Made by a program: the position numbers and the translations under genes. Source: Tritrichomonas foetus (lineage: Eukaryota > Parabasalia > Tritrichomonadida > Tritrichomonadidae). Taken from it: DNA of 64,000 nt. The stretch spans positions 1 to 64,000 of the forward strand of contig MLAK01000544.1 in NCBI GenBank assembly GCA_001839685.1, read 5' to 3'. Of this stretch, positions 2,182-37,489 are shown piece by piece (positions within the stretch are counted from its first letter, which is position 1; each line of letters begins with the position of its first letter). A model generated the notes under the pieces. The model was not told where the DNA came from. It made no database searches and was given only the letters and a program-made list of their open reading frames with translations.

Positions 2182-3948
2182 TTACTCGGTTTGCTTGAGG
2201 TTGTACTTTTCGCGTTGAAGGAGGTCGTCTTGGACAGCCTTAAGAACTTCTGCAAGGTCGTGTTCAGCCTTTGCCTGATCTTTGGCGCCAAGTTCGATGT
2301 ACCACTTGATCTTTGGTTCTGTTCCTGAAGTACGGATTGTGCATGAGCATCCGTTGTCGAGGTAGAATGTGATCATTTGTCCGCCTTGTTGTGGAAGGAG
2401 TGCCTTCTTGTCTGCTTGGGCGGAGTCGTATCCGTTTGTGATATCGCGAACGCGGGAAACGTTGAATTCTCCGATCTTGTTGATGTATGAACCATCTGGT
2501 CCACCAGTCCTCATTCTGATGAAGATGTTCTTGATGATTTCTGGGTCGTGGCAGAAGAAGAATTTGTTGTTGAAGAGGAAGTAGCCATATTTGGCATAGA
2601 TTTCATCGAGTTTGTCTGTAAGTGTCTTCTTTTCGTGTCTCATGAGGTAGTGGGCCATTTCACCGACGACGGCGGCAGTTGAGATGGCATCCTTGTCTGG
2701 GATTTCTCCTGGGATGAGGTTGAAGCCGATAGCTTCTTCGAAAGCGAGGAGGGCATGCTTTCCTTCTGCTTCGTTCTTGAGGGCACCATTACCAAGCCAC
2801 TTGAAGCCAGTCAAAGTTTCGTTATGAAGGAATCCTTCTGCCTCAGCCATCACGCGCTGGAATTGAGTTGAAACTGTGCTGCATGAGAAGACGCCAGTGT
2901 TGTGTGGATGCTTGAAGTGCTCCATCTGCCACCATGTGAGGAGGGTTCCAGTGTGGTTTCCGTGGAGAATGCGGAAGCTTCCATCCTTCTGGCGGACGGC
3001 AAGACCAACACGGTCTGCGTCTGGGTCTTGGCAGATGATGAGGTCACTTTTATGCGCGTTGGCAACTTCGATGGCCATGCGGAAGACTGGCTCGCCTTCT
3101 TCTGGATTTGGAAATGCGCATGTTGGGAAGTTGCAATCACCTTCAACTTGCTCTGGGACTGGGACGAATGGCGGAAGGCCGAATGCTTCAAATGACCAGG
3201 CGGTTGGCTTGTGGCCGACTCCGTGCATGGCGGTGTAGGTGATAACGAGGCCGGATTGCTGGGAGTTTTCATCGTGGTGGAAGCAAAGCTTTTCGACGAT
3301 CATCTTATTGTATGATTCCCTGACGCGTGAAAGTGGGTCGACGCAGAGTGGGGATGTTGCCCAGATGGAGAGGTGGTAGCCTTCCCATGGACGTCTGTTT
3401 TCTGGGGCTTGGATGGATTTGGCGATTTCGGCATCGTGTGGTTCGATGATTTGAGCACCGTTGTCCCAGTAGACCTTGTAGCCATTATCTTTGGCTGGGT
3501 TGTGGGAGGCTGTAACCATGACACCACCAGCAGCATTCAAATAGCGGATGGCATAGGCAACGTATGGTGTTGGAACGATTGTGGAGAAGAGGTAAACTTT
3601 AACACCTTTGAGGATGAAAACTGAAGCTGTGATTTCGGCGTAAAGGCGGGATCCGCGACGTGCATCATAGCCTAAAACAACACCGCGTTCTTGGAGTGTC
3701 TTTTCGCCAAGTGTTCTGAGGGCATATGAGCAGTAACCTTGAGCGGTTTGAAGGACGATACCAGCGTTTAAGTTGTTATAGCCTGGTCCCATTTCACCTC
3801 TGATACCAGCGGTACCGAAGGCTGGGCGCTTTCCGAAGTATTTCTTGAGGCCTTCTTCGTTGTCGAGAAGGGCTTCGATGGTTTTCTTGTATTCCTCGTT
3901 GGTTTCACAGGCGAGGTAGTCTAAAGCTTGCTCACGAAGAGTAGACAT
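2182..3948 (-). CDS. PGM2: Phosphoglucomutase / phosphopentomutase, PGM2 type
   Basis: A 588-residue member of the alpha-D-phosphohexomutase superfamily. It interconverts sugar 1- and 6-phosphates (or ribose/deoxyribose 1- and 5-phosphates) through a phosphoserine enzyme. All four family signatures are visible: the active-site loop TASHNP (residues 146-151, with the Ser that carries the phosphate), the metal loop DPDADR, the sugar-binding loop FEEAIGF, and the C-terminal phosphate-binding loop RTSGTEPK. The length and the GEIPDKD segment fit the PGM2/PGM2L1 branch rather than classical PGM1. Substrate preference (glucose against pentose phosphate) cannot be read from sequence. The gene is richer in G and C than its surroundings, which suggests strong expression. 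The ATG at 3948 follows a short AT-rich leader. Expected in the cytosol, feeding glycogen and nucleotide-sugar metabolism. Confidence 0.93.
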   Translation of the reverse strand: MSTLREQALDYLACETNEEYKKTIEALLDNEEGLKKYFGKRPAFGTAGIRGEMGPGYNNLNAGIVLQTAQGYCSYALRTLGEKTLQERGVVLGYDARRGSRLYAEITASVFILKGVKVYLFSTIVPTPYVAYAIRYLNAAGGVMVTASHNPAKDNGYKVYWDNGAQIIEPHDAEIAKSIQAPENRRPWEGYHLSIWATSPLCVDPLSRVRESYNKMIVEKLCFHHDENSQQSGLVITYTAMHGVGHKPTAWSFEAFGLPPFVPVPEQVEGDCNFPTCAFPNPEEGEPVFRMAIEVANAHKSDLIICQDPDADRVGLAVRQKDGSFRILHGNHTGTLLTWWQMEHFKHPHNTGVFSCSTVSTQFQRVMAEAEGFLHNETLTGFKWLGNGALKNEAEGKHALLAFEEAIGFNLIPGEIPDKDAISTAAVVGEMAHYLMRHEKKTLTDKLDEIYAKYGYFLFNNKFFFCHDPEIIKNIFIRMRTGGPDGSYINKIGEFNVSRVRDITNGYDSAQADKKALLPQQGGQMITFYLDNGCSCTIRTSGTEPKIKWYIELGAKDQAKAEHDLAEVLKAVQDDLLQREKYNLKQTE

Positions 3949-35268: not shown

Positions 35269-35568
35269 ATGACTGATGCAGAAAAAATTCTCGCCGATCT
35301 CGCTCGAAAAGACGGTGTTATTGGCACGGTCATATTGACAAGTGATGGTGTTCCAATTCGTTCAGATTTTCCTGAAAATGAAACAAATTTATATTCGGCC
35401 CTAGTTGCGCACTTTGTCCAGAGAACCAAAAAAGCCCTCGAGGAAATACCAGATTCAGGTGAAACAGAAGTTATCAGGATTCGCTCAAAGAAAAATGAGC
35501 TGATTGTCGCTCCATATGGAAACTTTATTTTCATCGCTGTTCAGGACCCATTCAATGTTCATAAGTAA
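35269..35568 (+). CDS. DYNLRB: Roadblock/LC7 dynein light chain
   Basis: A 99-residue protein that fits the whole roadblock fold: an N-terminal helix (AEKILADLARKDGVIGTVILTSDG), strands VPIRSDFPENETNLYS, the helix ALVAHFVQRTKKALEEI and the final beta hairpin ELIVAPYGNFIFIAVQDP. Roadblock light chains dimerise and bind the intermediate chains of cytoplasmic and axonemal dyneins. Given the other axonemal genes in the window, either class of dynein is possible. Confidence 0.94.
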   Translation: MTDAEKILADLARKDGVIGTVILTSDGVPIRSDFPENETNLYSALVAHFVQRTKKALEEIPDSGETEVIRIRSKKNELIVAPYGNFIFIAVQDPFNVHK

Positions 35569-36144
35569 TCACCTTCTCGGAATAAAGTTAGGCACCTTAA
35601 TTTGCTGCTTCACACAGATATTATATTAAAATTGATTTAAAGTTTAAAATTTCAAATATTTTTTATTACTTTTGTGTTTTCACATCTTTCTCATGTATTT
35701 AAAAAGACCTTTTATTCGGTCACTATTCTATTATTCTCATGAAAAGTAGATTTTGATCCAATCAAAATAAAACTGGTTTAAATGAGTACTCTAAAATGTA
35801 TACATTCTTTTATACGTGTATTTTCACATTTTGATTAACATTATCATTGAGAAAGCAGAGTTGATGAAAAATATATTTCAGATCACCATATAATTAATAT
35901 TATCTCTCATGGATGTTTTCAAGTGAATGCCATAGGATTTTCTTATCAATAAAATGAAGAAGTGAATATTTTTCTCAAGAAACAGTTTTAGTGAGAGTTA
36001 CTCAATTCACATCAAAATAAGAAATTGAATAGTTTATATTATTTTATTTGTGTTTGTCGAGATTGTATAGTTTATTTATATATTAATCAAACAGACCTAT
36101 TCAGTCTTTGAGAGGCAAAGGAAGGCCATTTTTCTCAAAACAAA
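35569..36144. other. Gene-free stretch and presumed 5' part of a non-coding transcript
   Basis: No ORF of note. The last part (about 36100-36144) would be the first exon of the transcript whose intron is at 36145-36249; it has no ATG between about 36000 and the 5' splice site. ACAGACCTATTCAG at 36091 is a weak relative of the AGACCGTTTATTC motif. Confidence 0.4.
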
Positions 36145-36249
36145 GTATGTAACTCTGGCTCTGATGATATTGTTCCTCTCGACTTAAACCAATTGGTGAT
36201 GTTGAAATTTAACAGCGTCTGAGCCTTCTTTCGATAAACTAACACACAG
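36145..36249 (+). other. Trichomonad-type spliceosomal intron, 105 nt
   Basis: Begins GTATGT (36145-36150) and ends with ACTAACACACAG (36238-36249). Both match the strict trichomonad intron signals; the 3' element fuses branch point and splice site and is highly specific. It is the only copy of the 3' word noticed in the window. The 105-nt length is within the known range. Neither flanking exon has a useful reading frame, so the host is probably non-coding or this is an intron in a 5' UTR. The intron encloses a C/D snoRNA-like unit. Confidence 0.8.
36157..36225 (+). ncRNA. Candidate box C/D snoRNA inside the intron
   Basis: A 69-nt unit. It has box C TGATGA at 36162-36167, a possible box D' CTTA at 36183-36186, box C' GTGATGT at 36196-36202 and box D CTGA at 36219-36222. 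Short complementary ends GGC (36157-36159) and GCC (36223-36225) would close the terminal stem. The order C, D', C', D and the size fit C/D methylation guides. The guide before D' contains GTTCCTCTCG (36172-36181), complementary to CGAGAGGAAC of the sarcin-ricin loop of large-subunit rRNA. Intron flanks of 12 nt each side fit exonucleolytic release from the debranched intron. The box C first base is C rather than a purine, and the terminal stem is short, so experimental support is wanted. Confidence 0.68.
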
Positions 36250-36898
36250 AATTCTTTTTTTTGCGACAACAAGAAAATCCATTCATTAACAAATCTTCAC
36301 CCGTAAGAAACGTTAACCATGTTGATTTTTAACTAAAAACACATTCGTGCTTCCCTGTAATGATTTTACACTTTTTTCTTTTTTTATTTACATATATATG
36401 TTCATTCATATTCGAGGATTGGCAAATCCTTTTTTTCGTTATTGAGAATGATGTATTGCCTTATTTTCTCATCATTAAAATGAATTAAAAATTAATTTGA
36501 GATTTCGAATATTTTCACAATTGTTTTTTCATCGAAATAAGGAGTGTTTCATGTGGCATTTGAAGCAATGAAAAAAAATCATTTAGCAAATCATTTCACT
36601 TGAACAAAAAGATGAATGGCGAAACAATTTTTACATTTGATTCTTCATGATGGTGTGGTGTCACTTTTGTGTTCATTTTTATAATCACCAAGTGACTTTG
36701 ATTTGTTATTGAGAAAAAAATGGCCAGGGGTTCCCCATAATAAAAAAAATATCAAAATTTCAAAATCTTAAAAATAATCACACATTTAATTTATCAGTGT
36801 AGCCGACAATAATATAAAATTAGTCGGAGAAAGAAAAAGTCGCTTGAAAAGCAACTCAATCAGCCCGCTCAGAAATATCAAGCCGAAAAAGCATTTTT
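36250..36898. other. Presumed 3' exon of a non-coding host and gene-free spacer
   Basis: Downstream of the intron, the first ATG (36318) opens only a five-codon frame. No protein gene is visible up to the 3' end of the ubiquitin-like gene. An ORF from 36844 on the plus strand is antisense to that gene and is not supported. Confidence 0.45.
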
Positions 36899-37489
36899 CT
36901 ACCAAAGTGTTGGGAGAGGCATTTCACATGGCGACTCCTCATTATTTGGCAGTACAACAGTTGGCTCAATTTTACGATTTCTCGAATTTTGAGCGAATAT
37001 CGAATAACACTGCTCGAACCTTTCGAGTAGAATCGGCCTCTCGCAGATTTTCATCATTCGAATGTCGCGGAGACGAGCAAATTCGCCAGATGTCCGGGGG
37101 TCGAGCCGCATTTTCATTCTTTCGGCCAAATTGTCGTTACTTTCACAAATGTGGGACCAAAATGACATATTCTGGTGAAATGCTTCACCTTCAATGTCAC
37201 TCTCTGATCGATTTCCGTGATTTTTTTCGTCAATTGAATTATTTCGATAATTGGGGCAGAAAAGGTGAGGTTCCTTTCGAGAAATAGCGACAATTATTGC
37301 GCCATCGGACACTTGATAAAAATTGAGAGGCTGAGATTCTGTCATTGCAAGCCCATCATAGAGCAATTCACAATCGGGATCTGGAAGGATTTTCTTAATA
37401 TCATAAACGCGCATTGATGGAGATAAACAAATCTCCCTGCGCAATGAGACGTCGGGAATGCAGACGATCACTCGGATTCTACTTGACAT
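36899..37489 (-). CDS. Protein with N-terminal ubiquitin-like domain
   Basis: A 196-residue protein. Residues 1-70 read as a ubiquitin fold: a first strand RIRVIVCIPD, second strand LRREICLSPS, helix MRVYDIKKIL, then CELLYDGLAM and LNFYQVSDGAIIVAI, which correspond to the ubiquitin strands and the DG turn. There is no Gly-Gly, so it is a fixed domain, not a modifier. The rest (about 75-196) is charged, with helical stretches (NLAERMKMRLDPRT; ILLERFEQCYSIFAQ), and matches nothing recognised. Proteins of this layout often work with the proteasome or p97; that is only a hint. The frame on the other strand across this locus is a shadow. Confidence 0.72.
   Translation of the reverse strand: MSSRIRVIVCIPDVSLRREICLSPSMRVYDIKKILPDPDCELLYDGLAMTESQPLNFYQVSDGAIIVAISRKEPHLFCPNYRNNSIDEKNHGNRSESDIEGEAFHQNMSFWSHICESNDNLAERMKMRLDPRTSGEFARLRDIRMMKICERPILLERFEQCYSIFAQNSRNRKIEPTVVLPNNEESPCEMPLPTLW

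Follow-up and report, generated by a model that had tools for sequence, protein, structure and literature searches.

Box C/D snoRNA-like units recur in predicted introns at small parabasalid loci that appear to be non-coding

Box C/D snoRNAs are stable small RNAs bound by fibrillarin, Nop56/58 and 15.5K, and intron-borne snoRNAs are known from animals and plants. In this pathway the excised intron is debranched and then trimmed up to the core that is covered by snoRNP proteins. The loci described here resemble the intron-encoded C/D snoRNAs of animals in that a C/D unit lies within a predicted spliceosomal intron, and they resemble hosts of the UHG/GAS5 type in having one snoRNA per intron and apparently non-coding hosts. 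They differ from animal hosts in that they are very small, have one known intron in 10 of 11 cases and belong to an intron-poor parabasalid, and in that the snoRNA occupies most of a 95-120-nt intron. The closest introns described in related organisms are the type A introns of Trichomonas vaginalis, for which a consensus was given in a 2025 intron census (PMC12316389). The census counts 63 intron-containing genes in T. vaginalis and 81 in T. stableri, besides putative 'inactive' intron sequences, and type A UTR introns of about 100 nt occur in Prp18 and Lsm3. The window intron shares with type A introns the GTATGT-like 5' end, an ACTAA branch site continuous with the 3' splice site (here ACTAACACACAG) and a length within their range of 56-196 nt. 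It differs in its content, as no snoRNA is reported within type A introns in the main text of the census, where the word snoRNA does not occur and 'small nucleolar' occurs twice (in a general remark on 5' UTR introns and in a reference title). The census, in the parts that concern us, left open the role of UTR introns, and in 2011 it had been judged 'highly unlikely' that Trichomonas has snoRNAs within introns (PMC3228867). Among the matches listed from open-licence PMC papers, none reported intronic snoRNAs in parabasalids in its title or the start of its abstract. As far as these literature searches reach, three things are new: that the arrangement occurs here, how large a part of the consensus introns it makes up and how compact its geometry is.

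The window, by which we mean the whole 64,000-nt stretch of DNA analysed, contains the features collected in Table 1. An earlier note had described a C/D snoRNA-like unit nested in a trichomonad-type intron, and direct reading of the sequence found all of its motifs at the positions it gave. The unit is flanked by 12 nt on each side within the 105-nt intron, and its inner order is GGC-TC-TGATGA...CTGA-GCC. Boxes C and D lie near the ends, with a C in place of the purine before box C, and the GGC/GCC terminal stem adjoins them. GTGATGT is present as the note listed it; the likelier box C' is ATGTTGA, since this motif is retained on contig C648, where the paralogue lacks GGTG before it. The reading of the whole as a C/D snoRNA-like unit within a trichomonad-type intron is well supported by its recurrence, the 5' splice sites at newly found loci, antisense matches to rRNA, the sub-threshold resemblance of some units to Rfam families and the paralogue pair. 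We consider it very probable that a small non-coding host gene with a spliced 105-nt intron gives rise to a C/D snoRNA of about 69 nt guiding rRNA 2'-O-methylation. The host gene would be transcribed, its single U2-type intron would be spliced at GTATGT and ACTAACACACAG, and after debranching the excised intron would be shortened from either end as far as the box C/D core. In the window copy (contig C154) as in the C648 copy, the D' guide would pair with the sarcin-ricin loop of LSU rRNA, to which it is antisense. We infer splicing, trimming and methylation likewise for the other snoRNA loci, and the inference of the earlier note that carrying the snoRNA is the reason for the intron is plausible.

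Table 1 Features of the snoRNA-like unit, its intron and its neighbourhood in the window.
Feature	Position	Strand	Remark
Predicted spliceosomal intron, 105 nt	36145..36249	+	Both end motifs and genome recurrence
5' splice site GTATGT	36145..36150	+	Read directly
ACTAACACACAG, combining branch site and 3' splice site	36238..36249	+	Read directly
Box C/D snoRNA-like unit, GGC 36157-36159 to GCC 36223-36225	36157..36225	+	
Box C TGATGA	36162..36167	+	Preceding base C, not purine
Putative D' guide ATTGTTCCTCTCG	36169..36181	+	Antisense to sarcin-ricin loop, LSU rRNA
Degenerate box D' CTTA	36183..36186	+	C648 paralogue has CTGA
GTGATGT	36196-36202	+	Read directly
Probable box C' ATGTTGA	36199..36205	+	Kept in C648 paralogue
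D guide TTGAAATTTAACAGCGT	36202..36218	+	Two A/G changes relative to C648 paralogue
Box D CTGA	36219..36222	+	Read directly
AAACAGACCTATTCA	36089..36103	+	Conserved with C648 paralogue
GGCCAT upstream element	36124..36129	+	Present in 5/11 host loci
Approximate exon 1, apparently non-coding host	36104..36144	+	5' end approximate
Exon 2 start	36250..36349	+	Drifts relative to paralogue
Roadblock/LC7 gene	35269-35568	+	Neighbour on one side of the unit
Frame of 196 aa, ATG start	36899-37489	-	Neighbour on the other side; no Pfam match
Frame of 147 aa, TTG start	36844-37287	+	Overlaps minus-strand 196-aa frame

Genome scans covered a 63.7-Mb parabasalid assembly, with the reversed pattern as the control. 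The assignment to parabasalids follows from the V-ATPase B subunit encoded in it, which is 93% identical over 96% to that of Histomonas meleagridis, the best named match among the 120 listed. The pattern GTATGTN{60,90}ACTAACACACAG was found at 7 places against 0 for the control, and all seven carried C/D-like boxes, some in variant form. With the looser pattern GTATGTN{60,90}ACTAACNNNCAG (78-108 nt), in which boxes were not asked for, the count was 12 against 5; C/D units were present in 11 of these places, the exception being C745, with neither a C/D unit nor a clear frame. A search for boxes C and D and the 3' splice motif, with no 5' site asked for, gave 9 places against 1, of which six were known and three were new (C306, C509 and C966). 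GTATGT was present at all three new loci, 17, 20 and 18 nt before TGATGA, respectively. Altogether at least 12 introns with a C/D unit were identified in 11 host loci. GTATGT occurs in 12/12 of them, having been part of the search for nine, and TGATGA together with CTGA occurs in 9/12 units (variants in C387a, C387b and C723), both boxes having belonged to the pattern that yielded C306, C509 and C966. The GTACGT variant of the 5' site was found at 0 places in the genome scan against 2 for its control. One host, on contig C387, has two introns with one C/D unit each, separated by an exon of 119 nt (L003:1501-1819); the second intron ends in the 3' motif ACTAACATTCAG, and its unit resembles SNORD74.

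Single motifs of this kind are common in AT-rich DNA, and exact ACTAACACACAG occurs at 17 places against 11 for the reversed pattern, as would be expected if splice-like and box-like motifs had met here by coincidence. The strict TGATGA/CTGA signature at suitable distances appeared in 11 of 2000 shuffles of the window intron and in 13 of 18262 overlapping 87-nt segments of the window (the locus itself counted in), and it was passed by six of the nine introns known first. A sequence-only model built from nine introns found 36145-36249 as its sole place in the window, a self-match by construction. The earlier note had judged coincidence unlikely, and the recurrence, the spacing, the antisense guides, the terminal pairing and the out-of-sample test together reject chance, which we regard as very improbable.

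The units are placed within their introns at nearly fixed distances. Box C lies 16-18 nt from the 5' splice site in 9/12 units (20, 21 and 27 nt in the others), and from box D to the ACTAAC branch motif there are 14-19 nt, also in 9/12 (21, 23 and 29 nt in the others), compared with about 50 nt from box D to the branch point in mammals. Among the first nine units both flank lengths increased together (Pearson 0.89; Spearman 0.62, P 0.08), and those with the longest 3' flanks (C387a, C723 and C909) had the most terminal pairs. Flanks paired better with their own than with permuted partners (P 8e-5 for nine units and 4e-4 for twelve), the terminal stem being weak in C648, C459 and C387b. One reading of this geometry is that the folded snoRNA brings both splice sites to a constant distance; the same was proposed for structured introns of T. 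vaginalis in a passage of PMC6679479.

The two end motifs were also found at genes of other kinds. Among the 17 exact ACTAACACACAG places, eight end introns bearing C/D units, two (L014 and L015) were assigned to neither class, and seven precede open frames without C/D boxes (L008, L012, L013, L017, L018, L019 and L021). GTAYGT lay within 260 nt upstream at L008 only; it was absent from this range at the other six places, where splicing would call for an intron of greater length or a different 5' site. Pfam searches with six of the seven frames matched five: kinase twice (the match at L013, E 9e-4, being below the Pfam cut-off), DHHC, NIF and the initiator-binding domain (IBD). The frame at L008 had no Pfam match. 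The same families, namely kinase, DHHC, FCP1/NIF and IBD, carry type A introns in T. vaginalis according to Table 1 of PMC12316389. A scan for longer introns with GTATGTN{100,130}ACTAACNNNCAG (118-148 nt) gave three places against two for the reversed pattern: C909, which bears a C/D unit, C176 and C954. When the flanks (150 nt on each side) were joined at C176 (L160), the sequence HCKAGLGRTGT was restored, which we take to be a phosphatase-type motif, and joining at C954 (L162) gave an open frame; the 3' motif is ACTAACATTCAG at both. Because these two coding frames open once joined, the motif pair, with ACTAACATTCAG as a 3' variant, behaves like splice sites in this genome. No H/ACA class was seen among longer introns, as the places found with the longer pattern are the C/D-bearing C909 and two coding-gene introns. 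A search for the debranching-enzyme family gave no match, nor did its controls.

These observations bear on whether GTATGT and ACTAACACACAG are instead end-processing signals of an independently transcribed snoRNA gene. A precedent exists in Giardia, where a 12-nt 3' processing motif is conserved among ncRNAs and recurs in trans-spliced introns (PMC3510501). However, both motifs fit the type A consensus of trichomonad introns as given in the census (PMC12316389), the pair with ACTAACATTCAG interrupts two coding frames that are open when joined, and the distances are near-fixed, with the unasked 5' motif present at 3/3 new loci. We therefore consider end-processing quite improbable and retain the spliced intron as the preferred reading.

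The window copy and its C648 paralogue have in common the splice motifs, boxes C and D, and AAACAGACCTATTCA upstream. All 13 bases of the sarcin-ricin guide (13/13) are kept, the D guide has two A/G differences, and exon 1 and exon 2 drift between the two copies. The conservation of boxes and guide with drifting flanks that the earlier note had proposed to look for in related genomes is therefore seen between paralogues of one genome rather than across species. AAACAGACCTATTCA is possibly the promoter or start of the host gene. Within the 110 nt that precede the intron, GGCCAT is present at 5/11 hosts, compared with 0.67% of 892 AT-rich segments of the window, and [AG]GCCA at 8/11 hosts, compared with 8.7% of 1723 window segments. 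Since GGCCAT was picked as the best 6-/7-mer, its P value needs to be discounted for thousands of words; it is perhaps a promoter element of the snoRNA host genes. No Trichomonas-type Inr site recurred consistently when the sequence upstream of the hosts was scanned.

Host frames were read over 150 nt on each side at 8/11 hosts (all but C306, C509 and C966). Frames across the C154 junction were short, and no long frame crosses it; at C459 one frame stays open on both sides of the junction, over 49 and 41 codons. Judging from the sequence, the window host exons appear to lack conserved coding capacity. A further possibility is that the intron belongs to the 5' UTR of an unannotated downstream coding gene, with the snoRNA as a passenger. 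UTR introns have been reported in T. vaginalis and T. stableri, according to the census (PMC12316389), and some hosts (on C387, C459 and C993) are followed at a distance by frames on the same strand. A 110-codon frame at C648 opens 44 nt past the intron, its first Met standing 18 codons before the frame end, and in the window the plus-strand 147-aa frame lies downstream of the intron. Against this, the longer same-strand frames start several hundred bases downstream (in the 7/11 hosts examined), and trichomonad 5' UTRs are short; the 147-aa frame overlaps the longer minus-strand ATG frame, and the frames across the C154 junction are short. We regard the 5' UTR reading as unlikely and prefer a small host gene that is itself non-coding.

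Covariance-model scoring, which the earlier note had suggested, gave C/D families on the window unit, none of them at the gathering score. The best match was snoR20a with 24.1 bits against a gathering score of 42, and the six matches of the window intron up to E 5 comprised five C/D families on the unit and one lncRNA model on the opposite strand. At the gathering score there was no Rfam match in the window or for any unit. Rfam models are made family by family, with none for the class, so scores below the cut-off do not exclude a C/D snoRNA. A scan of ten loci, which hold 11 units in 30,249 bases, gave 21 matches up to E 10; nine were on predicted units and on the correct strand, and twelve were elsewhere. 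The nine cover 5/11 units (C387b, C509, C648, C723 and C966), the other 6/11 having no in-place match up to E 10, and two out-of-place snoRNA matches reached 30 and 29 bits, equal to or above most in-place scores.

Several of these resemblances extend to the guides. C509 searched alone (131 bases) matched SNORD29 (RF00070) with E 7e-5 and shares with it AGCUCACU adjoining box D', with a score below gathering (31.2 vs 48 bits). C723 searched alone matched SNORD31 (RF00089; E 0.003) and Giardia GlsR4 (RF02473; E 0.018). The guide GCCGCCCCAGUC is common to both families and C723, and the ACGGC segment before box D of GlsR4 is also found in C723, which differs from them in scoring below their gathering cut-offs and in lying within a predicted intron. 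C966 searched alone matched SNORD18 (E 0.012), and C387b matched SNORD74 (E 0.19). Shared guide letters are visible in the SNORD31 and SNORD18 alignments.

For the antisense test, the reference consisted of 9-mers common to at least 3/4 LSU or at least 4/5 SSU sequences, drawn from E. coli, archaeal rRNA and one eukaryotic SSU from a bacterial MAG. The interiors of 5/12 units were antisense to such conserved 9-mers and 0/12 were sense; dinucleotide shuffles of the interiors gave a mean of 0.34 and reached five in 0/2000 sets. The five matches cover three targets: C154, C648 and C459 all match the sarcin-ricin loop, C993 matches SSU GCAAGGCTGAA and C909 matches LSU GAGCTGGGTT. The interiors of C306, C509 and C966 had no antisense match to the conserved 9-mers. 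This box-free test replaced a guide-wise one (6/18 vs a mean of 0.29), which was biased because some D' boxes had been chosen with the target in mind.

The window guide ATTGTTCCTCTCG is antisense to the sarcin-ricin loop as CGAGAGGAAC in archaeal LSU and CGAGAGGA in E. coli. It may be weak in the window copy, because box D' is degenerate (CTTA); for the C648 paralogue, the D+5 rule would place methylation on the G that corresponds to E. coli G2661. For the D guide of the window copy no target was found in the rRNA comparison, and C142, C387a and C306 had no trusted rRNA target. The D' guide of C723 forms 11 pairs (1 G-U) with E. coli 23S, its D+5 position falling on G2251. The D' guide of C993 also pairs over 11 bases (2 G-U) near E. 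coli 23S G1510, which was set aside for the conserved SSU match. No guide gave a longer match to E. coli than these two. Guide tests against E. coli only are weak, as 28-79% of shuffled guides reach 9 pairs.

Taken more widely, we think it possible, with the chances slightly below even, that a large fraction of the consensus introns still present in this lineage, and perhaps in the group, is kept for guide RNAs, that one guide set directs 2'-O-methylation within the sarcin-ricin loop and that dedicated one-intron genes of non-coding type tie the supply of snoRNAs to the spliceosome. If true, this would help to explain why a spliceosome is retained in a nearly intron-free genome. Should the arrangement hold in Trichomonas, retained introns would gain a concrete function, and ribosome biogenesis would depend on splicing.

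Some of the sites concerned can be set beside modifications described elsewhere. We take yeast Gm2619 to be E. coli 23S G2251, Gm1126 to be 16S G902, Cm2197 to be the second C of CUGUC, Am2946 to be A2577 and Cm2948 to be the base after G2578, equivalences that go by position numbers and not by a computed alignment. The yeast positions 3025 and 3027 are presumably those of the sarcin-ricin loop. Neither number occurs in the text of PMC8307265, whose yeast list contains, in the part relevant here, Gm2619 (snR67; 'Ec, H'), Gm1126 (snR41), Cm2197 (snR76), Am2946 (snR71) and Cm2948 (snR69). The SNORD91 site G4618 is placed in H95 in a passage of PMC12288042, and Tetrahymena TtnuCD32 is described in part of PMC6315972 as complementary to the base of the sarcin-ricin stem without methylating it.

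The organism's own rDNA was not found in the assembly with three patterns for the LSU sarcin-ricin and SSU core motifs: one gave a single place that was not rRNA-like by eye, another gave 88 places against 117 reversed, and the third gave none. Since these motifs were not found, rDNA seems to be missing from the assembly, and the targets accordingly are judged from rRNA of archaea and E. coli together with a single eukaryotic SSU. Among the contigs of bacterial MAGs, one (L084:1188-4122), binned with Chlamydiae, has eukaryotic rRNA comprising SSU, 5.8S and part of the LSU, and four others (L047, L059, L073 and L089) carry archaeal rRNA, pointing in each case to contamination or misbinning.
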